Positions 17,150-62,868 of a DNA stretch of 64,000 nucleotides are shown here, in pieces; the first letter of the stretch is position 1, and each line of letters starts with the position of its first letter. The stretch comes from Roseobacter weihaiensis. Its GTDB lineage: Bacteria > Pseudomonadota > Alphaproteobacteria > Rhodobacterales > Rhodobacteraceae. The position numbers and the translations under genes are program-made. The notes beneath the pieces were generated by a model that was given only the letters and a program-made list of their open reading frames with translations, was not told the DNA's origin and did not search any database. The stretch lies in NCBI RefSeq assembly GCF_020622345.1, contig NZ_JACNMO010000014.1, positions 1 through 64,000 on the forward strand, read 5' to 3'.

Positions 17150-17183
17150 GCAAGTATGGATACTATGGAGCTTTATAAAAACG

Positions 17184-17207: not shown

Positions 17208-17290
17208 AAATATTGACTATGGATGCAGTGAAGGTAAGTATGGCGTATTGCCGCACCAGAGAAGAGGCGGCGCACAAATGGGAGGAAACC

Positions 17291-18280: not shown

Positions 18281-18288
18281 TCGCTGCG

Positions 18289-18315: not shown

Positions 18316-18356
18316 ACCTCTCCCAAATGAATCAAGACCTTGGAAGGAAAGCTGAC

Positions 18357-18905
18357 ATGGCTGGCCAAAGCTCAGCTGTTGCGTCGCGCACGGGAAACAA
18401 TCTCTTTTTGCGCGGTGTTGCGGCACTCTCAACGCTCGCCGGATGGTGCTCCGCGGCCATGATCGTCGCTGCCGTTGCAATCACCTGCCAAATGATCTTT
18501 GTGCGGTTTGTTCTGAATCAATCCACAATCTGGCAGACCGAAGCGGTGGTCTATCTTGCGATCGCGGCAACCCTGGTCGGACTGCCTTATGTGCAAAGGC
18601 TGCGGGGGCATGTCAATGTGGATCTTATCCCGCTGTCCCTGCCCAAAAAGGCGCGATATTACATGTGCCTTCTGACGCTTTCGCTGTCGATTGCGATGGT
18701 CGCGGTGCTGCTTTTCTACGGCTATGAGCATTGGCATCTGACATATGAGCGCAACTGGAAATCTGACACGGTCTGGGGCGTTCGGCTGTGGATCCCCTAT
18801 CTCGCACTCCCGGTTGGGTTTGGGCTTTTTCTGTTGCAACTGGTTGCTGACCTGGTCGCCGTTATCCTGAAAGTCGACGCCCCCTTTGGCCTGGAGGATG
18901 TGTAA
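18357..18905 (+). CDS. matQ: TRAP transporter small permease (DctQ family)
   Basis: A 182-residue inner-membrane protein with four transmembrane segments and the DctQ-family pattern: a long helix 2 with QTEAVVYLAIAATLVGLPYV, then RLRGHVNVDLIPL, then a final pair of helices. It forms the small membrane subunit of the malonate TRAP transporter. The start at 18357 follows GGAAGGAAA. Its stop overlaps the matM start (TAATG), indicating tight translational coupling. Confidence 0.92.
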   Translation: MAGQSSAVASRTGNNLFLRGVAALSTLAGWCSAAMIVAAVAITCQMIFVRFVLNQSTIWQTEAVVYLAIAATLVGLPYVQRLRGHVNVDLIPLSLPKKARYYMCLLTLSLSIAMVAVLLFYGYEHWHLTYERNWKSDTVWGVRLWIPYLALPVGFGLFLLQLVADLVAVILKVDAPFGLEDV

Positions 18906-21456: not shown

Positions 21457-21466
21457 GAGTTTGAAG

Positions 21467-22984
21467 ATGCCAAATCCTCTTTACGATACCCTCTTTGGTC
21501 AACATAAAGGCAAGACGACGCCGTTCCTGCAAATGGCAGATGGTTCGGTTGTGACCCATGACACCTATCTTCAAATGTCAGCGCAATATGCGCATCTGTT
21601 CACCGAATGGGGTGTGAGACCCGGAGATCGCGTTGCGGTCCAAATCGAAAAGTCGCCCCAGGCCCTGGCGGTCTATGCCGCATGCGTGCAGGCGGGCTTT
21701 GTTTTTTTGCCATTGAACACGGCCTACACCGCGGACGAAGTTTCATATTTCGCTGAAAACAGCGGGGCCCGCGTGATCCTGTGCGATGCCAAGCGTTCTG
21801 ATGCGCTGGCCCCGGTTGCCGCCGCCTGTGGCGCGAGGCTTGAGACCTTAAACGCAGATGGTAGTGGCAGTTTTGCCATGCAGGCCGATAAAATGCCCGC
21901 TGCGTTTCCCACGGTTGACCGCAGCGTAGATGATCTGGCCGCCTTTCTTTACACGTCTGGAACAACAGGGCGCTCCAAGGGGGCGATGCTGACCCAGGGC
22001 AATCTTCTGTCAAACTGCCTGACCTTGACAGAGGAATGGCGGTTCACGGCCGACGATGCGCTTTTGCACGCGCTGCCCATCTTCCATACACACGGTCTGT
22101 TCGTTGCGACAAACATCGCGCTTCTGGCAGGCAGCAAGATCTTGTTCCTACCCCGGTTTGATCTGGATGTGATGCTGGAACTCATGGCGCAGGCCACCAC
22201 GATGATGGGCGTGCCCACGTTCTACACGCGGCTTCTGGGGGACGCGCGCTTTACGAAACAATTGACCCGGCACATGCGTCTGTTTGTGTCCGGCAGCGCG
22301 CCGCTGCTTGCTGAAACGCATCTCCAGTTCGAAGAGCGTACCGGCCACCGCATCCTTGAACGTTACGGCATGACAGAAACCAACATGAACACCTCGAACC
22401 CCTATGACGGAGAACGCCGTGCCGGCACGGTGGGCTTTCCGTTGCCGGGCGTCGAAATCAAGATCACCGACAGCCGAACCGGAGAAAGCCTGCCTCAGGG
22501 CGAGATTGGTGAGATCGAGGTCAGGGGTCCCAATGTCTTCAAGGGCTACTGGCAGATGCCGGAAAAGACGGCCGAGGAATTGCGGGAGAACGGGTTCTTC
22601 ATCACCGGAGATCTTGGGCAGATTGACGAAGATGGCTACCTCAGTATCGTCGGGCGGAACAAGGATCTTATCATTTCAGGGGGCTACAACATCTACCCCA
22701 AGGAAATCGAGCTGCTGCTTGATGCGCAGCCGGGCGTTTTGGAAAGCGCGGTCATTGGCGTGCCACATCCGGACTTTGGCGAAACCGTTCTCGGCATATT
22801 AGTCGCGGAGCGGCAGGCCATCCTCGATCTGGATGCGATCAAGGCAAATATCGGTGGGTCACTGGCAAAGTTCAAGCATCCCCAAAGGCTCGTTGTTCTG
22901 CCTGAACTGCCGCGAAACACGATGGGCAAGGTTCAAAAGAAGGAACTTCGTGAACACTACAAAGACATGTTTCTGCACGCTTAG
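21467..22984 (+). CDS. matB: malonyl-CoA synthetase (malonate--CoA ligase)
   Basis: A 505-residue acyl-adenylating enzyme of the ANL superfamily that activates malonate with ATP and CoA. Motifs in order are the P-loop FLYTSGTTGRSKGAML near residue 165, ALPIFHTHGLF near 205, the adenine motif ERYGMTETNMN near 305 whose MTETNM form is typical of MatB, FFITGDLGQIDEDGYL near 385, the hinge GRNKDLIISGGYNIYP near 400 and the catalytic Lys in PRNTMGKVQKKEL near 490. It starts 10 nt after the decarboxylase stop with AGGAG upstream and ends the mat operon. No clear terminator follows. Confidence 0.93.
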   Translation: MPNPLYDTLFGQHKGKTTPFLQMADGSVVTHDTYLQMSAQYAHLFTEWGVRPGDRVAVQIEKSPQALAVYAACVQAGFVFLPLNTAYTADEVSYFAENSGARVILCDAKRSDALAPVAAACGARLETLNADGSGSFAMQADKMPAAFPTVDRSVDDLAAFLYTSGTTGRSKGAMLTQGNLLSNCLTLTEEWRFTADDALLHALPIFHTHGLFVATNIALLAGSKILFLPRFDLDVMLELMAQATTMMGVPTFYTRLLGDARFTKQLTRHMRLFVSGSAPLLAETHLQFEERTGHRILERYGMTETNMNTSNPYDGERRAGTVGFPLPGVEIKITDSRTGESLPQGEIGEIEVRGPNVFKGYWQMPEKTAEELRENGFFITGDLGQIDEDGYLSIVGRNKDLIISGGYNIYPKEIELLLDAQPGVLESAVIGVPHPDFGETVLGILVAERQAILDLDAIKANIGGSLAKFKHPQRLVVLPELPRNTMGKVQKKELREHYKDMFLHA

Positions 22985-45931: not shown

Positions 45932-46432
45932 CTAAATCGGGGCGAAGACGACCCCAAACCCGCACGCGCAAAGGGCCAGTGTACTCAGCGGGGCCCGTGC
46001 GGCAATCAATCCGTATGAGATGAGGCTCGACCCCACAGCCATACGCACAAACGCAATCAGCGCCATCTCCGGCGCCTGAAGCAGACGGATCAAATCAGGG
46101 TTGGCGATCATCCCAAGGGGGATCACGTAAAGCCCCACCCCCAGCGCCATTGCCGTGATCGCGACGCGGAGCCAATTCTCTTGCATCATCCCTGAGGAGA
46201 TGAAAACGGCACCGCAGACAGGCGGGGTGATTGTCGACAAAAGCGCGTACCAAAACACGAACAAATGCGCCTGCAAAGGCTCTAGCCCCAACTTAATGAG
46301 CGCAGGACCAGCCACCGAGACGCAAATGACATAGGCCACCGTTGCGGGCATCTCCATCCCCAGCACCAGACATGCCAGTGCGGTCGGCAGCCGCGCAGGC
46401 CAAAGCATGCCGCCCGCACCGGACAAGATCAA
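45932..46432 (-). pseudogene. TRAP transporter (TAXI-type fused permease) C-terminal fragment
   Basis: About 166 residues match the C-terminal part of the large fused TRAP permeases that work with TAXI receptors: GMEMPATVAYVICVSVAGPA, LIKLGLEPLQAHLFVFWYAL and STITPPVCGAVFISSGMMQE, then further membrane helices. An intact protein has about 600-850 residues. The sense frame fades upstream of 46440 where the ureohydrolase gene ends, so the 5' portion is missing. No receptor gene is present. It is a relic. Confidence 0.8.
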
Positions 46433-46491: not shown

Positions 46492-47520
46492 TCACGACTT
46501 TATGGCTTCAGCGAGAATGCACATCATCTCGAACATCAGCGAGATGCCAAGCCATGCCGTGCCGCCCACTGGGTCAAAGGGCGGTGCCACTTCGACCAGA
46601 TCAGCGCCGACAAGGTTCAGACCCGCCATCGCACGAATGAGCTGCTGTGATTGATAGCTGTTTGGTCCCCCGATTTCCGGCGTTCCTGTACCGGGCGCGA
46701 ACGCCGGATCGACAAAATCAATGTCAAAGCTGCAATAGCTTGGCTGCGTTCCCAGAATATCGCGCGCCTCGGCCATGACGTCCTCGACGCCGCGATCAAA
46801 AAGCTCTTCGATGCGAATGATCCGAACACCTTGTGACAGTCCCCATGCGATGTCGTCGGTATTGTATGCCGTGCCCCTTATGCCAATCTGAACAAAGCGT
46901 TTGGGGTCCACTAGCCCCTCTTCGATGGCACGGCGGAACGGCGTCCCGTGGGTGAACCTGTGCCCGGCGAAGTAAGTGTCAAAAAGATCTGTGTGGCTGT
47001 CGAACTGGAGAAGACCCAAGGGCGCGTCGGCCCCCAGCGCCCTGAGGATCGGCAAGGTGATCAGGTGATCTCCCCCTGCTGTCATGGGCGTGATCGCGCG
47101 CGCCTTGAGGTCCGAATAAAACGCAGTGATCCGATTGAGGTTGTCGTGAATATCCACCGGGTTTGGCGCCACATCGCCCAAATCGGCACAATTGACGGTG
47201 GTGAAGGGGTTGACGCCGGTGACCGGATTGAGCGCCCGGATCATCGTGGAATGGTCACGCAACTGCCGCGGGCCATGGCGCGCACCCGGACGGTTCGTTG
47301 TGCCGCCATCCCAGGGGACGCCGACCAGCCCCAACTGTACCTCGGCGTATCTTGGATGATCCGGCGTCAGAGCCGGCAGACGCATGAATGTCGGAACCCC
47401 CGCGAAGCGGGCCAATTCCATTGCCGATACCGGCTGAAAAAAAGCGTTTTCCCGTGGTGTCATATTGCGAGATGCCCTTTTCGTTTCTTGGCTGGATAGC
47501 TGCGCTGGCGTGGGCCTCAT
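46492..47520 (-). CDS. ureohydrolase (agmatinase/guanidinobutyrase-like)
   Basis: A 342-residue arginase-family enzyme that hydrolyses a guanidino compound to urea and an amine. All manganese ligands are present: H152 in GGDHLITLP, D174, H176 and D178 in FDSHTDLFD, and D266 and D268 in FDIDFVDPAFAPGTGTPEIG. The GVPWDGGTTNRPGARHGPRQ segment near residue 67 is typical of agmatinase/guanidinobutyrase/guanidinopropionase members. The start at 47520 overlaps the permease stop (TGATG). It is the last intact gene of the polyamine-type ABC operon, so its substrate is probably what that transporter imports. Confidence 0.9.
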   Translation of the reverse strand: MRPTPAQLSSQETKRASRNMTPRENAFFQPVSAMELARFAGVPTFMRLPALTPDHPRYAEVQLGLVGVPWDGGTTNRPGARHGPRQLRDHSTMIRALNPVTGVNPFTTVNCADLGDVAPNPVDIHDNLNRITAFYSDLKARAITPMTAGGDHLITLPILRALGADAPLGLLQFDSHTDLFDTYFAGHRFTHGTPFRRAIEEGLVDPKRFVQIGIRGTAYNTDDIAWGLSQGVRIIRIEELFDRGVEDVMAEARDILGTQPSYCSFDIDFVDPAFAPGTGTPEIGGPNSYQSQQLIRAMAGLNLVGADLVEVAPPFDPVGGTAWLGISLMFEMMCILAEAIKS

Positions 47521-48335
47521 CAAGTCTTCTTGCGGCGACGGTTGCCCATTGCCAAGATAAGGGCGCGTGTCAGGATGACCATGACGACGATACAAATCAG
47601 CACGACCGAGACCGCCGCGATGGCCGGATCGATATTGTCGCGCAGCCCCATCCACATCAATCGCGGGAGGGTGACAACATTAACCGAGGTGATGAAGATC
47701 GTGACACCGATCTCCTCCCATGACAGCACGAAGCTGAGAAAAAATGCCGTCAGAACACCAAAACGGATGTTGGGCAGCAGCACGGAGTTGATGCGGCGCG
47801 CGAGCCCAGCCCCCATGGCACGTGCAGCAAGGTCGATGCGTCTGTCCACCTGCGCCAGGGATACACTGATCAGAACGACCGCAAAGGGGACGACCATAAC
47901 TGTGTGCGCCAGAACGACACCGAGCCAGCTGTCATAGCCAATCAGTGCATTGAGCTTTCCGGCGGAGACGAGGAAAAAATAAAGCGTCAAGGCGGACACA
48001 ACGGGTGGGGCCACCATCGGCAAAAGAGCCAGACCGATCAACAGCCCCGCAAATCGCGGGCGCAGCATCCAGATCCCAAGGCTGAACGCCAAGGCCAGCG
48101 CCGTCGCCAGAAGCCCGGAGAACAGGGCAATCTGCACTGAGAGCACTGTGGCCTCCCACCATTGGGGTGTCTCAACCAGTGTCTTGTAATGCCGGAGGGA
48201 CAACGCGCCGTCCGGCAATGACAAAAACCGTTTCGGCGTAAAGGATACCGGGATAACCGCGATCAGCGGCATCAGCAGAAATAGCCCCACAAAGGCCGCG
48301 CCGATAACGGCAATATGGCTCAGACGCTGGGTCAT
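47520..48335 (-). CDS. ABC permease, polyamine type (PotC-like)
   Basis: A 271-residue inner-membrane permease with six helices. The coupling loop RAMGAGLARRINSVLLPNIR near residue 175 and FFLSFVLSWEEIGVTIFITS are typical of PotC-like permeases. The C-terminus is basic (GNRRRKKT). It overlaps the PotB-like permease by four bases and the ureohydrolase by one. The substrate is probably a polyamine, guanidino compound or related cation. Confidence 0.9.
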   Translation of the reverse strand: MTQRLSHIAVIGAAFVGLFLLMPLIAVIPVSFTPKRFLSLPDGALSLRHYKTLVETPQWWEATVLSVQIALFSGLLATALALAFSLGIWMLRPRFAGLLIGLALLPMVAPPVVSALTLYFFLVSAGKLNALIGYDSWLGVVLAHTVMVVPFAVVLISVSLAQVDRRIDLAARAMGAGLARRINSVLLPNIRFGVLTAFFLSFVLSWEEIGVTIFITSVNVVTLPRLMWMGLRDNIDPAIAAVSVVLICIVVMVILTRALILAMGNRRRKKT

Positions 48336-49153
48336 CGATCCGTCCGCGGCGCGATGCTTTTGAGGAGCGCGACGAGAAACATGCCGACGCCTGTCATCAG
48401 CAGGACACTGATCGCGGCAGCCAGCCCCCAGTTCGGACTTTGGAATATCCGCAGGTAGATCAGCTCCGCCAACATGACGCTACGCCCCCCTCCCAGAATG
48501 GCGGGGGTCACGAAAAAGCCCAGCGCAAAGACAAATACGATGAGGGCCGCACCGATGATGCCGGGACCGGTCATAGGCACGAAAACCTGCCAGAACACGC
48601 GGGAGCGCCGCGCGCCCATCCCCCGCGCGGCCAGAAGCGCCCGTTCGTCAACATTGCGCATGGCGGCAGCCAGCGGAAAGACTGCGAAGGGGATCAGGAA
48701 ATGCGCCATGCCGACAATGACGCCGAACTCGTTGCGCACCAGCGTCAGCGGCGCGCTGATAATGCCGATGGCCTGTAGCCACTCGTTGATGAGACCACGG
48801 TTCGACAGGAGGGCAAGCCAGCCAAAGGCGCGGGTGAGCACCGAGATCCAGAAAGGGATCAGGATGCACAGCTCAACGAGCAACCTCTGAATCGGCGTGC
48901 CGCGCACCCAGACCAGCGCTATGACATAGGCCGCCACAACCGACACCAGCGTCACCGCCAGGCAAATCCGCAGCGTACGCAACACCACGGAATGGACCAG
49001 CGGATCGCTGAGCGCGGAGTGATACTGCGTCAGGCCCGGCTCGGGCAATGTGACGCTCCAACCGACAATGCCCAGAAACGGCAGGAAATAGCAGACCCCC
49101 AGAAAAAGGAGCAAGGGCCCGATCAGGAGGCTGGTTCGGAGAGCGTAGGACAT
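48332..49153 (-). CDS. ABC permease, polyamine type (PotB-like)
   Basis: A permease of about 273 residues with six helices. The coupling loop is ARGMGARRSRVFWQVFVPMT near residue 180, and LIGPLLLFLGVCYFLPFLGIVGWSV forms the first helix. The ATG at 49153 is chosen so that it starts after the binding-protein gene; an in-frame ATG at 49195 would overlap that gene by four bases and is possible. The 38-nt gap before it is GC-rich with only short inverted repeats. Confidence 0.9.
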   Translation of the reverse strand: MSYALRTSLLIGPLLLFLGVCYFLPFLGIVGWSVTLPEPGLTQYHSALSDPLVHSVVLRTLRICLAVTLVSVVAAYVIALVWVRGTPIQRLLVELCILIPFWISVLTRAFGWLALLSNRGLINEWLQAIGIISAPLTLVRNEFGVIVGMAHFLIPFAVFPLAAAMRNVDERALLAARGMGARRSRVFWQVFVPMTGPGIIGAALIVFVFALGFFVTPAILGGGRSVMLAELIYLRIFQSPNWGLAAAISVLLMTGVGMFLVALLKSIAPRTDR

Positions 49154-49191
49154 CGGGATTATGCCCCGGGGCCGACCCCAGGGCCGGGTCT

Positions 49192-50307
49192 TCAAGCCGA
49201 CGCGATGCCGAGATAGGCATCAAGGGCGGCACCGTAGTTTTCCTCGTACCAAGCTATATCTAGCGGTATCTGCTTGCCAAAGTTCGCCGGATCGACGGGG
49301 TTGAAGCGTTTGAGCTCGTCGGGCACGAGGGCGTCCGCTGCCGGGTTGCCGGGCCCCTGCGCCATAAGCTCGAACATCACCAGCTGCTTTTCCGGAGCCT
49401 GCGCTTCGGCGATGAATTTCATGGCGGCGTCCTTGCCGCCGGGATTGTCTTTCAGCACGGCCATCGACCCCGGCGAGAGAAGCCCGTCATCCCAGATGAA
49501 TTTGATATCACCCTCGGAATCCTCCTCGAGGATCTTGGCGCGGGTGGACCAGATCAGCGCCATCGAGGCATCTCCGTTCAACAGCAAGGACTGGCTTTCT
49601 GCCCCGCCGCCCCAGAAGGCCACGATGTTTTCCTTGAAGCCGGCAAGTTTCGCGTGCGCGCGCTCCAGATCGAGCGGATAGAGATCGTCGCGCGCAACGC
49701 CGTCCGCCAGCAGCAGCGCTTCCCACATGCCAACACCCCATTTATACATCGCGCGTTTGCCGGGGAATGCCTCGACGTCGAAAAAGTCGGCAATTCCGGA
49801 GGGCGGGGTGTCGCCGAATTGCGTACTGTCATAAGCAAGGACATAGGAGAAGAAATATGTCGATGCGGCATACTCCCATCCGAAGCCCTCGCGGGTTTTC
49901 GCGGGATCGACAACGGTATAGTCAATGGGCTCCATCAGTCCCTGCTTGCCGAGCGCCTGCGCCGAAAACGGGTCGGCGTCTACAATATCCCAACTCGGGC
50001 TGCCGCTTTCGGCCTGCGCCTGGATGGCCCCTTCGGTCGGGCCGGAGCCGTCCTGCTTGACAGTGATACCTGTGGCCGCTTTGAAAGGCGCACCGAACGC
50101 AGTGTCATAGGCGGTCATGGCGTCGCCGCCCCAGTTCACGAAAACCAGTTGCCCATCGGCCGCCAGCACCGGTGTACCCTGCGTTGCCAGCGCCGTGGTG
50201 CCCAGAAAACCAGCGGCCAGCTGGGTGAACTGTCTGCGCGAGATATGGCCCGCGCGTGCCTTGTTCGCCAGAATTTCGATGACGTCTTTTTCAAAAGGTG
50301 TCTTCAT
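49192..50307 (-). CDS. ABC extracellular solute-binding protein, polyamine (PotD-like) type
   Basis: A 371-residue periplasmic receptor. The N-terminus carries a twin-arginine-type signal (SRRQFTQLAAGFLG, residues 23-36), so it is probably exported folded by Tat. The mature start LVFVNWGGDAMTAYDTAFGA and VDADPFSAQALGKQG are PotD-like, and DIVDADP and WGVGMWEALLLADG belong to the ligand cleft. The ATG at 50307 follows GGAGAG. It is followed by two permeases and preceded by the damaged ATPase gene. The ligand is likely a cationic amine or guanidino compound. Confidence 0.9.
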   Translation of the reverse strand: MKTPFEKDVIEILANKARAGHISRRQFTQLAAGFLGTTALATQGTPVLAADGQLVFVNWGGDAMTAYDTAFGAPFKAATGITVKQDGSGPTEGAIQAQAESGSPSWDIVDADPFSAQALGKQGLMEPIDYTVVDPAKTREGFGWEYAASTYFFSYVLAYDSTQFGDTPPSGIADFFDVEAFPGKRAMYKWGVGMWEALLLADGVARDDLYPLDLERAHAKLAGFKENIVAFWGGGAESQSLLLNGDASMALIWSTRAKILEEDSEGDIKFIWDDGLLSPGSMAVLKDNPGGKDAAMKFIAEAQAPEKQLVMFELMAQGPGNPAADALVPDELKRFNPVDPANFGKQIPLDIAWYEENYGAALDAYLGIASA

Positions 50308-50368
50308 GTGATCTCTCCATTGGTTTGTCTGAATGCCGGTTTTCCGGTCTGTTCTTTCTGTTTGTTCT

Positions 50369-51442
50369 TTAAAGAAAAACACCGCGTTCCTCCGGCCATG
50401 TCACCCAGAGCGACGCGTTGTCCGTGATGTGTCCCGAAACCTGCGCCGTCGCCACATTCAGGGTTAATGCCTGCCCTCCGGGGGTTTCGAGCAGCAGTTG
50501 AGTTTCTGCGCCCATGTAGATGTGATCGACAACACGCGCCTGAATGGCGTTTCCCGCAGCGGGCTTTTCTCTCGCGATCCGCATATGTTCGGGCCGGATT
50601 GCCAGTTTTCCTCCGGGCGCGCCCGCCGTTGCCGCCACACGCAGAAGACTCGCCTCGAACCGGGCTGTGACATGGCCGCCGTCTTGCCGTGCGTCCAGCA
50701 CGGGCAGGATGTTGATGTCTCCCAGAAACTCCGCAACGAACTGGTTGCGCGGGTGTTCATAGACATCCCGGGGGGTGGCAACTTGCTGAAGCCGCCCGGA
50801 TTCAAAAATCGCGATCCTGCTGGACAAGGCGAGAGCTTCGGTCTGATCATGGGTGACGAACACAAAGGTCGTGCCGGTTTCGCGGTGCAAACGGCGCATT
50901 TCGTCCTGCATCTGCCCGCGCAGGTTCCGGTCGAGCGCTGAAAAAGGTTCGTCCAAAAGCAGCACCGGCGGCGCGTAGGCAAGCGCCCGTGCCAGGGCCA
51001 CGCGTTGTTGCTGACCGCCCGAGAGCGCTGCTGGACGCTTGTGCCCGTGCCCCTCCAGCCCCACCATTTCGATCATCTGGGCCACGCGCTGCTTGATGTC
51101 TGCGCCTGAGCGGCGCTGCACCTTCAAGGGGAAGGCGATGTTCTGCGCAACAGTCATGTGGGGAAACAGCGCATAGCCCTGAAACATCATGCCAAATCCA
51201 CGCGTCTCCGCGGGTTGGCCGGTGACATCGCGGCCGTCCAGAAACAAGCGCCCTGCGCTCACGGGCTCAAATCCACCGAGGATCATCAACAAAGTGGTTT
51301 TCCCCGATCCTGACGGACCCAGCAGGGTCACGAATTAACCGCGTCCAATTGTCAGCGAAATGTCCGAAAGGGCCACGAAGCTGCCAAAGGATTTGCCAAC
51401 ACCTTCTGCTCGTATTTCCGCAGCGCGGCCACTGCTTGTCAT
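50369..51442 (-). pseudogene. ABC ATPase, PotA-like, with an in-frame nonsense codon
   Basis: The gene should start at the ATG at 51442 and read MTSSGRAAEIRAEGVGKSFG, but codon 36 is TAA (51335-51337), where the family has Glu in the G-E-F-V-T-L-L-G sequence before Walker A. The rest is intact: GPSGSGKTT, signature LSGGQQQRVALARAL, Walker B VLLLDEPFSALDRNLR, switch His in VTHDQTEALAL and a TOBE domain with AIRPEHMRI. A GTG two codons after the stop (51331) could restart translation and give about 320 residues that keep all nucleotide-binding motifs but lose the first strands and the A-loop. It is either a broken gene or one rescued by reinitiation. Confidence 0.85.
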
Positions 51443-51503
51443 CACGTTGTCCCGAGTCAAAGCGTTCATACTCAGGTACGATAGGGTGAGAGGACGGGCC
51501 GCG

Positions 51504-52346
51504 TCACCCATCGCCGCCCAAGTCCGACCATATGCGTTCTGCCATCGCCTTTATTTTCAGCGCTTCTGTCCAGCGGTCGGACAATTCCCGCCCGTCGGCC
51601 CCTGTCATGGCATATTCCGGCGGTCCCAATTCGCAAAGAAATACCAGATCGCCTGCGTCGTTGCGGGCGCGCCAATCTGCGAGCCCCTCTTTCCAGAGGC
51701 TCTGAAACAGGGCCACCCACTTGGCGTGCTGTGGAAAGTCGATCTGCACCTGGATTTGCTGGCGGCTTGCCACGCGGCCCTGAAAACTGTCCGCGCGCGC
51801 GAAACACCGCGCCAGCAATTGCCGTTCCCAAGCGGCCAGGGGGAGCTTGAATTCGCGGTCAACGATGTAATGTGACAGGTCGGCGGCAAGGCGCATCTCC
51901 GGGATGGCGTCCAGCAGAGAGACGGTCGAGAACAGGTCGTTGGTGATGCAGTTGCGGTGGGTTTCGAAATGCACCGGGATGCCAACCTCATCCGACATCT
52001 CGATCCAGCGGCGGATCACCGGGATGGCCCCCGCAACCGTCAGCGGAAAAACCTGCCCCACGACATTGACGTAGGGTGCGCCGAAATCCTGCGCCATCTT
52101 CAGCGTGTCGCGCAAGCTTTCGACAGTGGGGGGGAAGGCCACGATCAGAGGCGTCAACCCTTCCCGTTGCAGATGCGGGCGCACAGCATGGGCCATCTCA
52201 ATATCCGCCGCACCAAGATCGATTGCGAGCCCGGCGTAGCCGGCATCAGCGACCATGCCGGCAATTCTGTCCAGTGCGAGCAGCTCACCCGACGCGTCAT
52301 GCGGCTGCATGGACCATAGCGATTGAAAGACCCTCAGGCGCTTCAC
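51504..52346 (-). CDS. sugar phosphate isomerase/epimerase-like TIM-barrel protein
   Basis: A 280-residue protein of the AP-endonuclease-2/xylose-isomerase-like TIM-barrel superfamily. Metal-ligand candidates follow the barrel strands: FETHRNCITNDL near residue 130, AADLSHYIVDREF near 155, and a QIQVQIDFP segment and CELGPPEYAM later. The family includes epimerases, isomerases and some lyases or dehydratases, so the reaction is unknown. It overlaps the desaturase-like gene by four bases and precedes the ABC genes, which ties it to metabolism of the imported compound. Confidence 0.82.
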   Translation of the reverse strand: MKRLRVFQSLWSMQPHDASGELLALDRIAGMVADAGYAGLAIDLGAADIEMAHAVRPHLQREGLTPLIVAFPPTVESLRDTLKMAQDFGAPYVNVVGQVFPLTVAGAIPVIRRWIEMSDEVGIPVHFETHRNCITNDLFSTVSLLDAIPEMRLAADLSHYIVDREFKLPLAAWERQLLARCFARADSFQGRVASRQQIQVQIDFPQHAKWVALFQSLWKEGLADWRARNDAGDLVFLCELGPPEYAMTGADGRELSDRWTEALKIKAMAERIWSDLGGDG

Positions 52347-53317
52347 GCAGCCTCAATACGTTGTGTACTGCCGTCACCGCGCGGAACAATCCAGACCTCG
52401 TCATAAGGATATTCCGCCTCCGACTTTGAGGACAGTTTGCGAAGCACTTCGATCTGAAATTCGATCCAGCCCATCTGGTGCGGTTTTGCCCCGCTCTGAC
52501 GCATTTCGGCGTCCAGGCTCGACAATTGCCAGAAAGGTACGCTGGGAAAAGTGTGGTGCGCCGTGTGATAAGGCATCTGCCAGCGCATCAGCGCATTCGT
52601 CTTCGTGGAACGGGTGTTCTCAAGAATGTCATCTTTATGACTAAGCCCCAGGTGTTCGATCGTGTTCTGCAATTGGTGCACGGGCTTCATGATCACCATA
52701 GGTGCGAGCCATAGGATCACGGCTGCCCAGGACCCGGTTGCGACCGAGATCAATGCAATCGCGAGGTACAGGGCCGCGTGAATACGCGCCTCGCGGATCA
52801 CTTTGCCATGCTCGGCCTCCCGGATGTAGGGTTCGATCACGATACCGCGGCACAAGCGCAGGATACGTGTAACGCGGCTGTGCCAATAGGTTGGTCCCCA
52901 GAACCACAGCAAGTAGCTGCGCAGCGTGTAAGGCTCGCGTACCAACTCGCCGTCTTTTTCCCAATTCTGCGTGTGTTGATGATGCGCCCAGTGCTGTATC
53001 TTGTCGAAGTCGCGCGGGAAGATCATCAAGAAGCCGATCAGCCTGCCAAGCCATTCGTTAAGCCACTTTGTACTGAAGACCGTGCCGTGGCTCAGCTCGT
53101 GTTGCGCGGCATAGAGAAAATTGATCAGCACACCGTGTACCATAAAGATGGGAACGACCCACCACGTCCCCCAGAGCATCCAAAGCGCTGTTCCGGACAG
53201 GGCAATGGCCCCTGCATGACTTCCGAACTGCAAGGCACCTTGCAGATCAGACCGTTGCATCAGTTCACGCATCCGTTCGGGCGAGACAAGCCGACGGCGA
53301 GAAAAACTTGCATTCAT
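52343..53317 (-). CDS. membrane di-iron fatty-acid-desaturase/hydroxylase-like protein
   Basis: A 324-residue integral membrane protein with three His clusters of the desaturase/hydroxylase superfamily: QHELSHG near residue 74, HWAHHQHTQN near 110 and YHTAHHTFP near 255. These bind a di-iron centre that activates oxygen. Four or more hydrophobic segments surround them. Members act on fatty acids, alkanes, carotenoids or small amines. The ATG at 53317 follows AGGAGGT. It is the first gene of the polyamine-type ABC operon and divergent from a LysR regulator, a context quite unlike lipid desaturation, so hydroxylation of an imported nitrogen compound is an inference worth testing. Confidence 0.87.
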   Translation of the reverse strand: MNASFSRRRLVSPERMRELMQRSDLQGALQFGSHAGAIALSGTALWMLWGTWWVVPIFMVHGVLINFLYAAQHELSHGTVFSTKWLNEWLGRLIGFLMIFPRDFDKIQHWAHHQHTQNWEKDGELVREPYTLRSYLLWFWGPTYWHSRVTRILRLCRGIVIEPYIREAEHGKVIREARIHAALYLAIALISVATGSWAAVILWLAPMVIMKPVHQLQNTIEHLGLSHKDDILENTRSTKTNALMRWQMPYHTAHHTFPSVPFWQLSSLDAEMRQSGAKPHQMGWIEFQIEVLRKLSSKSEAEYPYDEVWIVPRGDGSTQRIEAA

Positions 53318-53415: not shown

Positions 53416-54324
53416 ATGCGCATCGGATCGAAACATCTGCCGCTAAAATCATTGCAAGGATTTGAAGCGACGGGGCGCCTTCTGAACATGAGGCATGCTG
53501 CAGAAGAGTTGAACCTCACCCAAAGTGCTATCAGCCACCAGGTTCGGTCCCTGGAAAGGGCTTTGGGGCGGCCCCTCTTTGCAGAGAACAGGCGGCGGCT
53601 TGTGTTAACCCCTGACGGTGAACGCCTGTTAGGTGCTGTCCAACAAGGTCTTGAACTCATCGCGGCGGCTGCCGCACAGGTCCGCGAGGACACTTTTTCT
53701 TCCAGCCTTTCGGTTTCGGCTCCGCCGGCCTTTGCGTCACAATGGCTCGTGCCAAGGTTGCCACGTTTTCTTGATCTCTTTCCTGATTTGACCTATTCGC
53801 TGATCCCGACGTCAGGCAATTCTCTGAAAGACTTGCCGCGCGTGGATGCATCTATCGTTTTCAATAGCGCACAGTTTCCGGGCATGCGGGTAGAGGCACT
53901 GACGCAGCTCGATATGTTTCCCGTCTGTGCTCCGAACAGTGTTCTGGGCACCGCGCCGATGGCCCCCGAAGATCTGCGCAGGGTCACGCTGATCCACGAG
54001 GACCAGGGGGAGATCTGGGCAAGATGGTTCGCAGCTGTCGGCGCGGACCAGACAGAGCCGCGGCGAAACATTTTCGTTTCGGGAACGCAGGCAGCACTTG
54101 CGCTTGCTGTTGCCGGTGTCGGGTATGCCATTGACGATGGCATTATGGGGGCAAAAGCGCTGGCGGACCGTTCACTTGTCAGACCCTTTGGCCAGAGGAC
54201 ATTTGCGTTCGGATCGTATTCGATCGTAACCCCGCCTTTGGAGCGCGTCACGCCTGCGGCACTCGCGTTCACCGACTGGGTGCGTCAAGAAATATCCGAA
54301 ACAATTCGGGTGCGTTCGTCCTGA
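53416..54324 (+). CDS. LysR-family (GcvA-like) transcriptional regulator
   Basis: A 302-residue LysR-type regulator. The N-terminal winged helix reads FEATGRLLNMRHAAEELNLT then QSAISHQVRSLERALGRPLF, close to GcvA/AmpR members. The effector domain starts near residue 95 (SLSVSAPPAFASQWLVPRLP). It is divergent from the desaturase/ABC/ureohydrolase operon, its likely target, with an imported compound or product as inducer. Confidence 0.92.
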   Translation: MRIGSKHLPLKSLQGFEATGRLLNMRHAAEELNLTQSAISHQVRSLERALGRPLFAENRRRLVLTPDGERLLGAVQQGLELIAAAAAQVREDTFSSSLSVSAPPAFASQWLVPRLPRFLDLFPDLTYSLIPTSGNSLKDLPRVDASIVFNSAQFPGMRVEALTQLDMFPVCAPNSVLGTAPMAPEDLRRVTLIHEDQGEIWARWFAAVGADQTEPRRNIFVSGTQAALALAVAGVGYAIDDGIMGAKALADRSLVRPFGQRTFAFGSYSIVTPPLERVTPAALAFTDWVRQEISETIRVRSS

Positions 54325-57772: not shown

Positions 57773-58437
57773 CCTATCGCCTGCATCATGTAGCCCAGCC
57801 CGCGTTTCACAATGATCTGAACGCCGTAGGGCTGGAGCCGTTTGCGCAGGCGGGAAACATAGACTTCGACCACGGGCTCATCCACGTCGGCACCGGTGCC
57901 ATAAAGGCTATCCAGCAAGAGTTGCTTTGAGACAATCCGTCCCTCCGCCATCAGCAGCCGCTCGAACAAGGCGACCTCCCGGCGCGGAATGTCGAGCGGA
58001 CCCTCGGGCCCCTCGACCGTTCGGGCAGTTCTGTCGAGCGTCACACGCCCGATGCCGGTGATCGGTCTGGGTTTCTCGGCCACGCGCCGCGACAAGGCCC
58101 GAATGCGCGCGCCGAACTCCTCCATCTCAAAGGGCTTGCTCAGATAGTCGTCCGCGCCTGTATCGAGCCCTTTTACCTTGTCGTCGATCTCTGCCCGGGC
58201 TGTCAGCAAGAGGACCGGTCGCTGATCGTCCCGCGCCCGCATGCGGCGCAGAATCGTCAACCCATCGAGGTCCGGGAGGTTGATGTCCAAAACCACGATA
58301 TCGGCAGCATCATCACGCAAAAAGGCTTCGGCCTCTGCACCATCGTGCAACAGATCAACCGCGTGGCCTGCATCTTGCAGGTAATATCGAAGACCTTTGG
58401 CGACCGAGATGTTGTCTTCAATCACGAGGATGCGCAC
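57769..58437 (-). CDS. OmpR/TctD-like response regulator
   Basis: A 222-residue regulator. The receiver domain has the acidic pair in VIEDNIS, phospho-acceptor Asp in VVLDINLPDLDG near residue 51 and Lys in LSKPFEMEEFG. The C-terminal winged helix (VALFERLLMAEGRIVSKQLL, EVYVSRLRKRLQ) is OmpR type. The GTG start at 58437 puts RILVIEDN at the N-terminus and has AAAGGA upstream; a longer reading from 58476 is less likely. It is divergent from tctC. Confidence 0.9.
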   Translation of the reverse strand: MRILVIEDNISVAKGLRYYLQDAGHAVDLLHDGAEAEAFLRDDAADIVVLDINLPDLDGLTILRRMRARDDQRPVLLLTARAEIDDKVKGLDTGADDYLSKPFEMEEFGARIRALSRRVAEKPRPITGIGRVTLDRTARTVEGPEGPLDIPRREVALFERLLMAEGRIVSKQLLLDSLYGTGADVDEPVVEVYVSRLRKRLQPYGVQIIVKRGLGYMMQAIG

Positions 58438-58573
58438 GACCGTCCTTTCAACAAAAATCCAAGATGCAAGGCTCACGCAAGGATGTCACTGCAAGGTCTT
58501 GGCATCAAGAAGACTTGGGAGGTCTTCTGATTCTATGTCTGGGGCCCTGCTGAGCCCCTTGGGAGGAGTACAA

Positions 58574-59677
58574 ATGCTTAAGAAAACCCTGCGCCCACTG
58601 GCGGGCGCACTCGCGATGTCGTCCGCGCTGGTCGCAACGCAAACCATGGCCGATGGCCACCAAATCGATCTTTCCGGCAAAACTGTCGAATGGATCATTC
58701 CTTTCTCCGAAACCGGTGGCTCCGCCAAATGGGCCAATTTCTATGCCCCACTTCTGTCCGAGGCTCTGCCCGGCAACCCCACCGTGGTCGTGACGTTCAA
58801 CCCCGGTGCCGGGTCCACGAAGGGGGCAAATGCGTTCCAGCAAATGGAATATGAAGATGGCACGACGATCTTTGGCTCGTCCGGTTCCACCCAGTTCCCC
58901 TATCTGCTGAGCGACCCGCGGGTGCGCTATGAATACCGCGACTGGAACGTGGTCTTGGCCTCTGGCACCGGTGGCGTGGCGTATCTGCCAGCCGATCTGC
59001 ACGGCATGCTCGGCGAAGGTGGCGATGCCGCCGGGATCGCGGGTGAAGACTTCATCTATGGCTCCCAGGGCGCAACCCGGCTGGACCTCGTGCCGCTTCT
59101 GGCTTGGGAGATGCTGGGCCTGAACGTGGAGCCTGTCTTTGGTATCGAAGGCCGTGGCGATGGCCGTCTGATGTTCGAACGCGGCGAAGCCAACATCGAC
59201 TATCAGACATCTTCTTCGTTCCTGTCGGGTGTGACGCCACTCGTTGAGGCCGGCACCGCTGTGCCATGGTTCTCATTCGGTGCTCTGGACGCGGATGGCA
59301 ACATCGTGCGTGACCCGACGTTTCCCGATATGCCAACCTTCAAGGAAATCTGTGAGGCCACCGAAGGCTGCGAGACCGAAGGCGAACGGTGGGACGCTTG
59401 GAAAGCATTCTTCACCGCGGGTTTTCCGGCTCAGAAGATGGTCTTCCTGCCCGCAGGCGCACCTGAAGAGGCCATCACGACCTTCACCGAAGCCTTCGCT
59501 GCGATCCAGGAGCGGGATGATTTCGCCGAGATCAGCCAGGCCCGTCTTGGCGCCTATCCGCAGATGACGGGTGAGGCGGCCAAAACGGCGATGGCAAGTG
59601 CCACCGATGTGCCGCAGGAGGCCAAAGACTTTGTGATCAACTGGCTGCGCGAACGCTACGGAGTCGTCCTGCAGTAA
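58574..59677 (+). CDS. tctC: TTT-family substrate-binding protein (TctC)
   Basis: A 367-residue periplasmic receptor of a tripartite tricarboxylate transporter. Residues 1-28 are a signal peptide (ending TMADGHQ). KTVEWIIPFSETGGSAKWAN near residue 38 is the conserved first ligand loop, with VVVTFNPGAGSTKGANAF near 75. It is longer than the usual roughly 320 residues. GGGAGGAG precedes the ATG. A 9-bp hairpin separates it from the permease gene. The ligand is some di- or tricarboxylate, judged from the downstream enzymes. Confidence 0.9.
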   Translation: MLKKTLRPLAGALAMSSALVATQTMADGHQIDLSGKTVEWIIPFSETGGSAKWANFYAPLLSEALPGNPTVVVTFNPGAGSTKGANAFQQMEYEDGTTIFGSSGSTQFPYLLSDPRVRYEYRDWNVVLASGTGGVAYLPADLHGMLGEGGDAAGIAGEDFIYGSQGATRLDLVPLLAWEMLGLNVEPVFGIEGRGDGRLMFERGEANIDYQTSSSFLSGVTPLVEAGTAVPWFSFGALDADGNIVRDPTFPDMPTFKEICEATEGCETEGERWDAWKAFFTAGFPAQKMVFLPAGAPEEAITTFTEAFAAIQERDDFAEISQARLGAYPQMTGEAAKTAMASATDVPQEAKDFVINWLRERYGVVLQ

Positions 59678-59687
59678 TCACACCATT

Positions 59688-59714
59688 CCCCACCCGTTCA
59701 AACCACGGGTGGGG
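59688..59714 (+). promoter_or_regulatory. intercistronic stem-loop between tctC and the tctA-tctB fusion
   Basis: A perfect 9-bp stem CCCCACCCG / CGGGTGGGG with a 9-nt loop, 10 nt after the tctC stop, followed by a T-containing but not T-only stretch. It probably protects or partly terminates the receptor transcript. Confidence 0.7.
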
Positions 59715-59752
59715 GTTCTCTCATTTGAAATTTCACCGAACGGGGGCCGATC

Positions 59753-61780
59753 ATGGAGGTCTTTGCGACAGCGTTGCCTGCGCTCAACGATGCGTTTGCG
59801 ATGATCCTGCAGCCGCATGTGCTGGGTTTTCTGGTCCTCGGTGTTGTGATGGGGCTGTGTATCGGTGTCTTTCCGGGCCTTGGCGGGATCGCGGGCCTGT
59901 CTCTGCTGCTGCCGTTCATGTTCGGGATGGAGCCGGTCACGGGCCTTGCCCTGATGATCGGCATGGTCGCCGTGGTGCCGACCTCCGACACCTTCGCCTC
60001 GGTCCTCATGGGGATACCCGGATCGTCAGCCAGTCAGGCGACGGTGCTGGACGGTTTTCCCATGGCCAAAAAGGGCCTCGCGGCGCGGGCGCTGTCGGCA
60101 GCCTTTGCCGCCTCCCTTTTCGGCGGTCTTGTGGGTGCGGCTTTCCTGACGGTTTTCATTCTGGCCGCGCGCCCCATCGTCTTGCTCTTCCAGACCCCCG
60201 AATTGCTGATGATCACCATTTTCGGCCTGTCGATGGTCGGCATTCTTGCCGGGCGCGTGGCCTTGAAGGGCCTTGTCGCGGCCTGTCTGGGCATCCTTGT
60301 GGGCACCATCGGGGAGGGGGCGAGTTCCGGCGCGTTGCGTATGTCGACCTATGATATGCCCTATCTCGCGGATGGGCTGAAACTGGTGATCGTGGGGTTG
60401 GGCATCTTCGCGATCCCGGAAATCGTGGCCCTGTTGCGCCGTGACAAGGCCATCTCTGACCGCGCGCCGCTCGGGGGGGGATGGCTCGAGGGGGTCAAGG
60501 ATTGGTGGAGCAATAAATGGCTCTCGGTGCGCTGCTCGCTGATCGGCGTCGTCGTGGGCGTGATCCCCGGCCTCGGCGGGTCGGTGGTGGACTGGATTGC
60601 CTATGGTCACGCGGTGCAGACCGCCAGGGACAAGTCAGAATTCGGCTCAGGCGACGTGCGGGGGGTGATCGGGCCAGAAAGCTCGAACAACGCCAAGGAG
60701 GGTGGTGGGCTGGTGCCGACGCTGCTGTTCGGCATCCCCGGTTCCGGCTCCATGGCGATCTTTATCTCCGCCGTTGCACTGCTTGGCACCGGTTCCATCG
60801 AGGTCGGGCCCTCGATGCTCAAGAACAATCTTGATTTCACCTATGCCATCGTCTGGCTGTTGGCGCTGGCCAATGTGGTCGGTACCATCATTTGCATCGC
60901 GGCGTCGGGCGGCATCGCGAGGCTGACCGAAATCCGCTTTGCCCTCTTGGCCCCGTTCCTGTTCATGATCATCGCCTTTGCCGCGTTTCAGTCGCGGCAG
61001 GAGATCTGGGACCTCGTCGCTCTTTTCGGCATCGGTCTGCTGGGCATCATGATGCGCCGTTTTGACTGGTCGCGGCCTGCTTTCCTGATCGGTTTTGTGC
61101 TGGCCGCGCCTGCCGAACGTTACACAAATCAGGCCTACCAGATTGCCGCGTCGCGGTTCCGCCGCGGGTTTGAAGAAGGGATCGACTATATCTTCAGCCC
61201 CATCGTGATCGTGCTGATCATCATCACACTGCTGTCGGTGGTCATCGGTTTGCGCCAGGCCAGAAATATTCAGGCCGAGGGCACCGTGGTCTCTGGCACC
61301 AAGAGGGCGCCGGTGCTCTTCTTGCTGGCGGTCACAGCCTATATCGCGCTGGCTTACTGGAATGCTGCGGTGATCCCGGATTTTGCCCGCATGGACCGGG
61401 TGTTCCCGGTGTTTGTCGCAACTGTCGCGCTCATCGGCTGCGTCTTGCTGCTGATCCAGATGATGCGGTCAGACGAAACCGCCCCCATCTTTGCCGATCG
61501 CGAGGCCGAAGACGCCGAAGACAACGTGCACAGCCTGTGGTCGACGCTGGGATGGTTCGCAGGCTTGCTCGTTGCCTCTGCGCTTGTGGGGTTCATCCTC
61601 GCGCTAGCCGGGTTCCTGCTGCTCTTCATCCGCATCCGGGCCGGCAAGAAATGGGGGTATGCGGTGATCTACACCGCATGCGGCATCGCATTCATCTGCA
61701 CCATGGCCTGGACGCTGAACCGCGATTTCCCCCCGGGGCTCTTGCAGTCTTACGTTGATCTGCCGTGGCCGCTCACATGA
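59753..61780 (+). CDS. TTT transporter permease, TctA-TctB fusion
   Basis: A 675-residue membrane protein. Residues about 1-495 are a TctA large permease with the repeated proline-rich motifs GVFPGLGGIAGLSLLLPFMF, FASVLMGIPGSSASQATVLD, GVIPGLGGSVVDWIAYG and PTLLFGIPGSGSMAIFI. Residues about 510-660 form four hydrophobic segments beginning RAPVLFLLAVTAYIALAYWN, matching the small TctB subunit. The usual separate tctB gene is absent, so both membrane subunits are fused, in the order A-B. The stop overlaps the next gene's ATG (ATGA). Confidence 0.88.
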   Translation: MEVFATALPALNDAFAMILQPHVLGFLVLGVVMGLCIGVFPGLGGIAGLSLLLPFMFGMEPVTGLALMIGMVAVVPTSDTFASVLMGIPGSSASQATVLDGFPMAKKGLAARALSAAFAASLFGGLVGAAFLTVFILAARPIVLLFQTPELLMITIFGLSMVGILAGRVALKGLVAACLGILVGTIGEGASSGALRMSTYDMPYLADGLKLVIVGLGIFAIPEIVALLRRDKAISDRAPLGGGWLEGVKDWWSNKWLSVRCSLIGVVVGVIPGLGGSVVDWIAYGHAVQTARDKSEFGSGDVRGVIGPESSNNAKEGGGLVPTLLFGIPGSGSMAIFISAVALLGTGSIEVGPSMLKNNLDFTYAIVWLLALANVVGTIICIAASGGIARLTEIRFALLAPFLFMIIAFAAFQSRQEIWDLVALFGIGLLGIMMRRFDWSRPAFLIGFVLAAPAERYTNQAYQIAASRFRRGFEEGIDYIFSPIVIVLIIITLLSVVIGLRQARNIQAEGTVVSGTKRAPVLFLLAVTAYIALAYWNAAVIPDFARMDRVFPVFVATVALIGCVLLLIQMMRSDETAPIFADREAEDAEDNVHSLWSTLGWFAGLLVASALVGFILALAGFLLLFIRIRAGKKWGYAVIYTACGIAFICTMAWTLNRDFPPGLLQSYVDLPWPLT

Positions 61781-62868
61781 CCCAGACCGCGATTCCTTTC
61801 CTGTTCATGCGGGGTGGGACCTCGCGGGGGCCCTATCTGAACCGTGCCGACGTGCCCGAAGACCGCGAGGCATTGGCCCGGGTGCTGATCGCCTTGGTGG
61901 GGGCGGGCCATCCGCTGAACATAGACGGTATTGGCGGCGGCAATGCGGTGACAACCAAGGTGGCGATGCTGTCGCGGTCAGAGGACGCGTGGGCAGACAT
62001 CGACTATTTTTTCGCACAGGTGAGCGTGGAGGACCGGGCCGTCGATTTCAAACCGACCTGCGGCAACATCCTGTCGGGCGTTGGACCGGCAGCCATCGAG
62101 ATGGGGTTGATCGCGCTCGGAGGCCGCGAGACCAAGGTGAAGATCCGCGCGGTAAACACCGGGGCGCGGGTCGTGGCGACGGTTCAAACACCCGCAGGGG
62201 CCGTATCCTACGCGGGAGATGCCGCCATTGACGGGGTGCCGGGCACGGCGGCACCCGTGGCCTTGCAATTCATGGATACCATCGGCGGCACCACAGGCGC
62301 CTTTCTGCCCACGGGGCACCTCATCGACACTTTTAACGGGGTCGATGTCACCTGCATGGACGTCGCAATGCCCATGGTCATCGCCAAGGCCTCCGCATTT
62401 GGGCTAACAGGTTATGAGAGCGCCGGGGCACTTGACGAGAACACGGAATTCTTTGGCAGGATGGAAGCTGTTCGTCTCCTGGCGGGAAAGGCGATGGGCA
62501 TGGGAGACGTCGCATCCTCTGTCACGCCGAAATTCGGCCTTCTGGCGCCGGCCCGCGACGGTGGCACCATTGCAACACGCTATTTCATGCCGTGGAAAAC
62601 CCATCCCGCCATGGCCGTCACCGGTGCACAATGTCTTGCCTCCTGCGTGCTGACACCGGGCACTGTGGCCGACGGGATGGCCAGGAGATCGACCGCCCGT
62701 CCTGCGACCGTCACCCTGGAACATGCCTCTGGCCGGATCGATGTGCTGGTGGAGTATGACCTGACCGCCGATGGCATCGACCTGCGGTCTGCCGGTCTTG
62801 TGCGCACAGCGCGTCTTTTGGCCCGTGGAGAGGTCATGATCCCCGACCACATCTGGAGCGCCGCATGA
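61777..62868 (+). CDS. PrpF/GalD-like isomerase (4-oxalomesaconate tautomerase-like)
   Basis: A 363-residue enzyme of the PrpF family (diaminopimelate-epimerase fold). IPFLFMRGGTSRGPYLNRAD at the start, GIGGGNAVTTKVAML near residue 52, and FKPTCGNILSGVGPAAIE near 92 with the catalytic Cys are diagnostic. The C-terminus EVMIPDHIW is like GalD, which interconverts keto and enol forms of 4-oxalomesaconate. PrpF (aconitate isomerase) and 3-methylitaconate isomerase are alternatives. The ATG at 61777 overlaps the permease stop. It likely acts on the imported carboxylate. Confidence 0.85.
   Translation: MTQTAIPFLFMRGGTSRGPYLNRADVPEDREALARVLIALVGAGHPLNIDGIGGGNAVTTKVAMLSRSEDAWADIDYFFAQVSVEDRAVDFKPTCGNILSGVGPAAIEMGLIALGGRETKVKIRAVNTGARVVATVQTPAGAVSYAGDAAIDGVPGTAAPVALQFMDTIGGTTGAFLPTGHLIDTFNGVDVTCMDVAMPMVIAKASAFGLTGYESAGALDENTEFFGRMEAVRLLAGKAMGMGDVASSVTPKFGLLAPARDGGTIATRYFMPWKTHPAMAVTGAQCLASCVLTPGTVADGMARRSTARPATVTLEHASGRIDVLVEYDLTADGIDLRSAGLVRTARLLARGEVMIPDHIWSAA

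Follow-up and report, generated by a model that had tools for sequence, protein, structure and literature searches.

A candidate oxygen-dependent route for carboxylated guanidino compounds in an operon of Roseobacter weihaiensis

Introduction

What compound is imported and degraded by an operon that encodes a membrane protein of the FA_desaturase fold together with a triosephosphate isomerase (TIM) barrel protein, a PotABCD-type importer and a ureohydrolase? The question is raised by a locus in a 64,000-nucleotide stretch of Roseobacter weihaiensis DNA (contig NZ_JACNMO010000014.1, positions 1 to 64,000; here called the window), which belongs to contig C5 of a 5.35 Mb genome (G000). The operon lies on the minus strand, with the genes in the order MocD-like protein, TIM barrel, PotA, PotD, PotB, PotC and ureohydrolase, and a LysR gene is divergent from it (Table 1). 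A preliminary description of this DNA had suggested the oxygen-dependent catabolism of a guanidino or polyamine compound. The reading that we favour, at slightly less than an even chance, is that the operon would serve the oxygen-dependent import and breakdown of a small carboxylated guanidino compound. This proposal is built from gene families and gene neighbourhoods, and all its reaction steps are therefore ones that we infer. In a literature search of open-licence papers, no paper was recognised as describing this gene set.

Results

The MocD-like protein is a member of FA_desaturase (PF00487), and nine histidines (H73, H77, H109, H112, H113, H222, H251, H254, and H255) are invariant among 31 aligned sequences, which bears out the earlier description of a membrane protein with three His boxes. 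The top curated match of the window protein is GntB (NF041365), a family matched by all 31 sequences scanned. At 37.7 bits, the score is far under the cutoff of 380, and the relation to GntB is thus one of resemblance and not of membership. Scores for DesA and DesB are 24.6 and 25.3 bits, respectively, against a cutoff of 500, and weak matches to these two families are present in 30 and 26 of the 31 sequences. The structure model of the protein (predicted local distance difference test score, pLDDT, 91.0) is most similar to chain K of the Orf2971-FtsHi motor complex (PDB code 8xks; template modelling (TM) score 0.67), followed by a chain of a similar complex (PDB code 8xqw; TM 0.64) and by AlkB (TM 0.44).

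Based on the FA_desaturase fold, the nine histidines, GntB as the best curated match, and the exchange of oxygenases described below, MocD is predicted to be a GntB-type di-iron hydroxylase and not a lipid desaturase. A role as an ordinary desaturase of membrane lipids, unrelated to the neighbouring genes, would agree with the fold and with the weak DesA and DesB matches, but is difficult to reconcile with the match to GntB throughout the alignment, with a near-constant TIM-barrel partner, and with the apparent replacement by PhyH, and we consider this alternative highly improbable. A placement of the His-box protein among known fatty-acid desaturases, which the preliminary description had named as a result that would speak against its proposal, did not emerge from the NCBIfam scores.

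Among 390 genomes of the order, 40 have a MocD orthologue (57–80% identity), a count that includes the genome of the window; the next matches listed are at most 40% identical. The relatives named here belong to Rhodobacterales, and their genes were called with a simple caller of our own. In 37 of the 40 genomes, the TIM-barrel gene is located downstream of MocD on the same strand (36 by the counting rule, and L069, where the called genes overlap by 49 bases), and in the other three there is no TIM barrel in the stretch examined. The same arrangement is seen in 69 of 80 loci from the GTDB set, which has some genomes in common with the 40. Of 385 genomes sampled across the class, 27 contain a TIM homologue (E-value 1e-30 or better), and 12 of 28 TIM places (outside G000 and G003) have an adjoining MocD, always upstream and on the same strand. 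The gene neighbourhood is thus conserved, as the earlier description had asked to be checked, and extends in part to the importer: 11 of the 163 target loci, representing 8 lineages, have a receptor of the window type, compared with none of 20 control loci around distant FA_desaturase genes.

All seven gene types were seen in one unbroken operon only in the window. L117 has all seven, with two LysR genes separating a MocD-TIM arm from a PotABCD-ureohydrolase arm, and L190 has them on one strand in the order MocD, TIM, LysR (opposite strand), PotDBCA, and two ureohydrolases. Besides the window, PotABCD genes are found near MocD-TIM at L071 (the same locus as L031), L073 (the same as L033), L074, L117, L137, L190, L191, and L192, and their order or strand differs among the loci. 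The distribution is best read as a constant core of MocD and TIM, to which the importer and the ureohydrolase are lineage-variable additions. At L271 and L272, which have no TIM barrel in the stretch, a second MocD-type gene is followed by a different receptor, an ATPase and two permeases, as identified by eye.

The TIM-barrel protein adopts a xylose-isomerase-like fold (Foldseek E 2.5e-8, TM about 0.6). Its AlphaFold2 model (pLDDT 92.2) is best matched by D-allulose 3-epimerase (TM 0.59) and also by AsbF (TM 0.54). Residues E128, D156, H159, and E239 are invariant in 32 sequences and resemble the metal site of the xylose-isomerase-like superfamily, where we take them to be metal ligands. The window protein has no match to an NCBIfam family, and the 32 members hit three unrelated families only (best E 0.024); hydroxypyruvate isomerase (Hyi) and MocC were rejected as identities, as there is no convincing NCBIfam match to either. 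Position 189 is occupied by histidine in L196, L197, L198, L201, and L203, and by glutamine in the other 27 sequences, including those from loci with MocD.

Three of the His-189 loci (L196, L198, and L203) have a gene for a PhyH 2-oxoglutarate oxygenase nearby. Such a gene lies 15 bases to 2.7 kb from TIM in 6 of the 16 loci that have TIM and no MocD (L196, L198, L199, L202, L203, and L206), and within 2.7 kb of TIM in none of the 118 loci with both MocD and TIM; at a lower score limit, PhyH is also seen at L264, which has MocD and no TIM. At two further TIM-only loci (L200 and L207), a Rieske gene resembling GbcA is present. This pattern suggests that MocD and PhyH replace each other beside the TIM barrel, although the six PhyH loci represent three families, which is few. 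Such an exchange is the best evidence that MocD acts as an oxygenase together with TIM, and not as a lipid desaturase.

The same loci bear on the possibility that MocD is an oxidative demethylase that releases formaldehyde from an N- or O-methylated substrate, possibly a methylated guanidino acid. The mocDEF genes are regarded as encoding an oxidative demethylase in rhizopine catabolism. FghA and AdhC-like formaldehyde-dehydrogenase genes adjoin TIM at the PhyH loci L202, L203, and L206, and also at L201; at L202, the locus whose scores were checked, they exceed the curated cutoffs. Rieske genes of the type found at L188 (best match GbcA, under cutoff) are located near L188, L200, L207, and L262, and MttB-like genes near L120 and L180. 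However, among the 16 TIM-only loci the FghA and AdhC genes are limited to four from a single family, none of the 118 MocD+TIM loci has them, and the Rieske type is also present in 1 of the 20 controls. The frequency of SoxA does not exceed that of the controls (2 of 20), with 1 of 118 MocD+TIM loci and 2 of 29 loci without TIM. The remaining one-carbon genes counted in the MocD+TIM loci were FolD (2), DMGDH-like (5), and MttB-like (2), and neither these nor FghA or AdhC were found in the controls. The one-carbon genes show no clear excess in MocD+TIM loci, and demethylation is therefore set aside as improbable, more so than a substrate without a guanidino group (see Discussion).

As for the ureohydrolase, membership of PF00491 is clear, and the GGDH, DSHTD, and SFDID motifs, which presumably provide the metal ligands, are present in the alignment to 3-guanidinopropionase GpuA (PDB code 3nip). 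GpuA is the nearest PDB entry (402 bits), followed by guanidinobutyrase GbuA (PDB code 3nio; 303 bits). The score for the agmatinase equivalog (TIGR01230) is just under the cutoff (166.8 vs 174.3 bits), and agmatinase was rejected as an identity; of the earlier label “agmatinase/guanidinobutyrase-like”, the ureohydrolase family is retained and the agmatinase assignment is not. The window enzyme has a tyrosine at the position of GpuA Y157 and GbuA M161, which according to a passage in PMC10833137 join in substrate recognition. Since a fungal 4-guanidinobutyrase is described as likewise having tyrosine here (PMC10833137), the residue is a weak pointer to the substrate.

Using a hidden Markov model (HMM) built from eight ureohydrolases, partly genes of these loci, a ureohydrolase was detected at 15 of 147 MocD loci and at none of the 20 controls. 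In a stronger test, based on position, MocD was clustered at 80% identity into 43 lineages, each represented by its first member, and the background density was taken from 290 PF00491 genes in 271.4 Mb of 65 genomes. With nearby genes found by our own HMM and the background by PF00491, 8 of the 43 lineages, the window's among them, have an arginase-family gene no more than 6.5 kb from MocD, compared with 0.75 expected (P 6e-7), and 5 have one within 2.5 kb, compared with 0.32 expected (P 1.6e-5). Random members in place of the first give a mean of 7.8 lineages within 6.5 kb. These counts include L259–L273, a set added once some of its members had been seen to lie close to genes of the arginase family; of the 36 MocD places in the underlying search, the 27 at E 2.9e-66 or better are all included, and the 9 weaker ones were left out.

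The position of the ureohydrolase varies. It is convergent with TIM at L126, L147, and L181 (74% identical at L181), directly 3′ of TIM at L187 and L189, and 154 bases before MocD at L259, where TIM is not in the stretch. The enzyme at L117 is 43% identical to that of the window. In addition, a DDAH/ADI-family (dimethylargininase/arginine-deiminase) gene identified by Pfam lies 21 bases from MocD at L093, and a relative lies 140 bases away at L133.

The solute receptor of the importer carries the RR motif SRRQFTQLA, in agreement with the twin-arginine (Tat) export proposed earlier. Its best PDB matches are two γ-aminobutyrate (GABA) sensors based on Pf622 (PDB codes 9d57 and 6dgv), followed by 4i1d and 4eq7, of which we take the latter to be Atu4243. 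The 11 PotD sequences from the vicinity of MocD include that of the window, and two pairs among them are one locus each, present twice. Every one of the 11 retains R205 of the GABA site, presumably the carboxylate binder, and has glycine in place of D228. A passage in PMC12999171 lists the GABA site of Pf622 as W9, T13, F100, Y102, W202, R205, D228, and Y264, with the amine bonded by D228, and gives residue 102 of the sensor as a phenylalanine changed to tyrosine. With the amine-binding aspartate lost, the window protein is not assigned as a GABA receptor; because R205 is retained and D228 is lost, its ligand is predicted to be a carboxylate with a cationic end unlike that of GABA. The polyamine specificity suggested in the preliminary description finds no support, since the closest matches of the receptor are GABA receptors, whose amine-binding aspartate it lacks. 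For the ATPase, the PotA subfamily (TIGR01187) score is 350.2 bits compared with a cutoff of 355.6, computed on the part after an in-frame stop codon only.

Discussion

In the route that we propose, the PotABCD-type importer would bring in a carboxylated guanidino compound, the carboxylate being suggested by the receptor residues, and the MocD-like membrane protein would hydroxylate its chain. The TIM barrel, as a metal-dependent isomerase- or lyase-like enzyme, would then rearrange or cleave the hydroxylated product. The GpuA-like ureohydrolase, which is clear as to family and predicted as to substrate, would release urea before or after the hydroxylation. The leftover hydroxy- or oxo-acid might, more speculatively, reach central metabolism at glyoxylate or hydroxypyruvate, because GhrA-like and BhcABC genes are found near MocD-TIM elsewhere.

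GhrA-like reductases (best NCBIfam match GhrA, under cutoff) were counted at 8 of the 163 target loci, from 6 lineages, and at none of the 20 controls. At L034, genes for BhcA, BhcB, and BhcC of the beta-hydroxyaspartate cycle, all three above curated cutoffs, are located at 4021–7565, divergent and from 1.3 kb away from MocD-TIM; the other side of L034 has genes for a thiamine pyrophosphate enzyme, an Asp/Glu racemase, and a Pot-like importer. Together with the genes that we take to be DgcN, DgcA, and a D-aminotransferase, 0.9–4 kb from MocD in 14, 13, and 14 loci, respectively, of 5 lineages, these neighbours weakly suggest glyoxylate, hydroxypyruvate or amino-acid pools as the destination of the products. 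They also feed a reading in which MocD-TIM degrades a nitrogen compound without a guanidino group, e.g., a betaine or a D- or hydroxy-amino acid, and the ureohydrolase became part of the window operon fortuitously or to carry out a separate step. A trimethyllysine/butyrobetaine dioxygenase-family gene (under cutoffs) about 6 kb away at L181, with relatives in 4 of 118 MocD+TIM loci and in none of the 20 controls, points in the same direction, as does the large majority of MocD loci (132 of 147) that have no ureohydrolase in the stretch examined. Such a substrate is less easily combined with the excess of ureohydrolases over chance, with their direct contact with MocD or TIM at the six loci listed above, and with the DDAH-like neighbours at L093 and L133. 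We regard it as a serious but rather unlikely alternative.

A guanidino substrate, which we continue to prefer, gains from the count of lineages, and to this extent the earlier proposal is upheld; its polyamine half is not, and the 132 loci count against it as a whole. Several further observations weigh against the route. The controls are few and all from Rhodobacteraceae, and at a frequency of 15 in 147, a result of none in 20 has a chance of about one in eight. Those ureohydrolases near MocD that were compared with the window enzyme share 31–74% identity with it, so they belong to several subfamilies. The Dgc-type neighbours are on the same side of the balance, as are neighbours read as pca genes at L035 and as cobalamin synthesis at several loci, the lack of a ferredoxin partner in the operon, and two lesions in the window strain, a stop in PotA and a three-residue deletion in MocD.

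The wider distribution of the window ureohydrolase is a further point against the route. Among the matches listed from 380 genomes of the order, relatives of at least 70% identity are present in 21 other genomes, and only one of these (G323) has a MocD orthologue, 0.7 Mb from the ureohydrolase. In 6 of 8 inspected loci (of 20), a second ureohydrolase (34–36%) and a ProXVW-type importer adjoin, and in 3 of the 8 M20 carbamoylase-like and DDAH-like genes adjoin as well; neighbour families were profile-checked for L239 and read by eye for the others. At L239, L240, and L243 (Rhodobacteraceae), the two ureohydrolases, the ProXVW-type importer, and the carbamoylase-like and DDAH-like genes lie together, in what looks like a separate set for the catabolism of guanidino compounds. 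The window ureohydrolase seems to belong to an independent gene set for guanidino compounds, and its recruitment to MocD-TIM would have taken place in the window and in G766.

The lesions raise the possibility that the locus is decaying in this strain and has no function there, a reading that is compatible with the others. Neither the lesions nor the DctM remnant next to the operon had been mentioned in the preliminary description. The PotA frame from ATG 51511 ends at a TAA just before Walker A, and the listed open reading frame starts at GTG 51331, whereas the called PotA genes of L033 and L071 (356 and 369 residues) run on past the position of the stop. L071, from Albibacillus kandeliae, and L073, from Heliomarina baculiformis, combine an uninterrupted PotA with a MocD of full length. 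The MocD deletion is an in-frame loss of three residues just before H251 of the third His box (HxxHH), and is seen in none of the 30 aligned relatives, close or distant. Directly 3′ of the ureohydrolase, a DctM gene is represented by its C-terminal part alone, possibly the edge of a recombination. On the other hand, the remaining six genes of the operon have uninterrupted frames, that of MocD including its deletion. The stop could stem from a sequencing error, as the assembly is a draft, and translation could restart at GTG 51331. Compared with L071, L073, and L117, third-position changes exceed those at first and second positions for MocD, TIM, PotA, PotD, and PotC, as expected for genes kept by selection; PotB was excluded, its comparison being out of frame. 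Loss of function is therefore judged possible, at well below an even chance, and a milder outcome is that the route may be impaired in this strain.

Organization of the window

All seven genes and the LysR gene were found at the positions given in the preliminary description, and the Pfam families agree (Table 1). The description of most junctions as overlaps of 1–4 bases is correct for four of six: MocD/TIM, PotB/PotC, and, provided that a TTG start is used, PotD/PotB overlap by 4 bases, and PotC/ureohydrolase by 1. TIM and PotA overlap by 8 bases if ATG 51511 is the start, and a gap of 61 bases separates PotA from PotD. The LysR regulator also matches Pfam HTH_1, and NCBIfam GcvA at 216.9 bits (under the cutoff of 288); divergent LysR genes of 60–63% identity are present at L071, L073, and L070. 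No Rfam match at the gathering threshold was found in the window. Elsewhere in the window, receptor and permease genes of a tripartite ATP-independent periplasmic (TRAP) transporter are followed by genes that we take to encode a malonyl-CoA decarboxylase and a malonyl-CoA synthetase (17042–22984), and TctC/TctA-like tricarboxylate transporter genes are followed by a presumed PrpF-like isomerase (58397–62868), names that are likewise our assumption.

Table 1. Features of the operon and its immediate surroundings in the window
Feature	Position	Strand	Evidence
LysR-type regulator, GcvA-like	53416..54324	+	Pfam LysR_substrate 101.1 bits; divergent from operon
MocD/GntB-like FA_desaturase-fold protein	52343..53317	-	Pfam FA_desaturase 118.9 bits (cutoff 29.7); nine invariant His
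Xylose-isomerase-like TIM barrel	51504..52346	-	GTG start; AP_endonuc_2 24.8 bits, under cutoff 31.1
PotA-like ATPase frame, 5′ part	51335..51511	-	Closed by in-frame TAA 51335-51337
PotA-like ATPase remainder, Walker A onward	50369..51331	-	Pfam ABC_tran and TOBE_2
PotD/GABA-receptor-like solute-binding protein	49192..50307	-	SBP_bac_8; twin-Arg signal
PotB-like permease	48332..49195	-	BPD_transp_1; PotB 141.7 bits, cutoff 348
PotC-like permease	47520..48335	-	BPD_transp_1; PotC 89.3 bits, cutoff 326
Ureohydrolase	46492..47520	-	Pfam Arginase 284.6 bits; PDB nearest GpuA, then GbuA
TRAP DctM permease, C-terminal remnant	45932..46432	-	Matches DctM positions 316-413 of 413 only

Comparison with known systems

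The operon might represent an undescribed oxygen-dependent route for guanidino acids in marine Alphaproteobacteria, with a catabolic counterpart of GntB, a new family of xylose-isomerase-like TIM barrels acting on oxygenase products, and a membrane di-iron oxygenase (MocD) interchangeable with a soluble 2-oxoglutarate oxygenase (PhyH), although taken as a whole this is rather doubtful. A long shot within it is a concrete form in which an acid resembling 3-guanidinopropionate undergoes hydroxylation and loss of urea, with hydroxypyruvate or glyoxylate as the carbon product. If the route is true, a widespread marine order has an oxygenase-dependent way to open guanidino nitrogen, enzymes of the FA_desaturase fold gain a catabolic small-molecule role beside GntB, and a TIM-barrel family with a swappable partner oxygenase is defined. 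Identification of the substrate would annotate many genomes, as about one in ten of the sampled Rhodobacteraceae (40 of 390) has a MocD orthologue.

Among the closest known systems is that of rhizopine catabolism, where a MocD-type oxygenase also takes part in the catabolism of an imported small nitrogen compound. MocC is TIM-barrel-like, and mocE and mocF encode the ferredoxin and reductase partners. A plasmid relative (H23), 31% identical, is annotated as MocD-like. Unlike the moc system, the window operon has no ferredoxin gene (ferredoxin and reductase partners were searched for within the operon only), and its TIM barrel has no NCBIfam family. According to a reference title cited in PMC10107442, mocDEF has been modelled as a ferredoxin oxygenase complex.

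The window ureohydrolase resembles those of Pseudomonas, with GpuA and GbuA as best matches and a tyrosine at the GpuA position, but to our knowledge no oxygenase belongs to the GpuA and GbuA routes. Similarly, the receptor shares W9, W202, and R205 with the GABA receptors Pf622 and 4eq7, but differs by alanine for T13, tyrosine for F100, and glutamine for Y264. As for MocD, the best curated match, GntB, is the L-arginine gamma-hydroxylase of guanitoxin biosynthesis, described in its NCBIfam entry and in a passage of PMC10367076 as a transmembrane enzyme with a small guanidino amino acid as substrate. GntB is thus biosynthetic, whereas the window operon looks catabolic.

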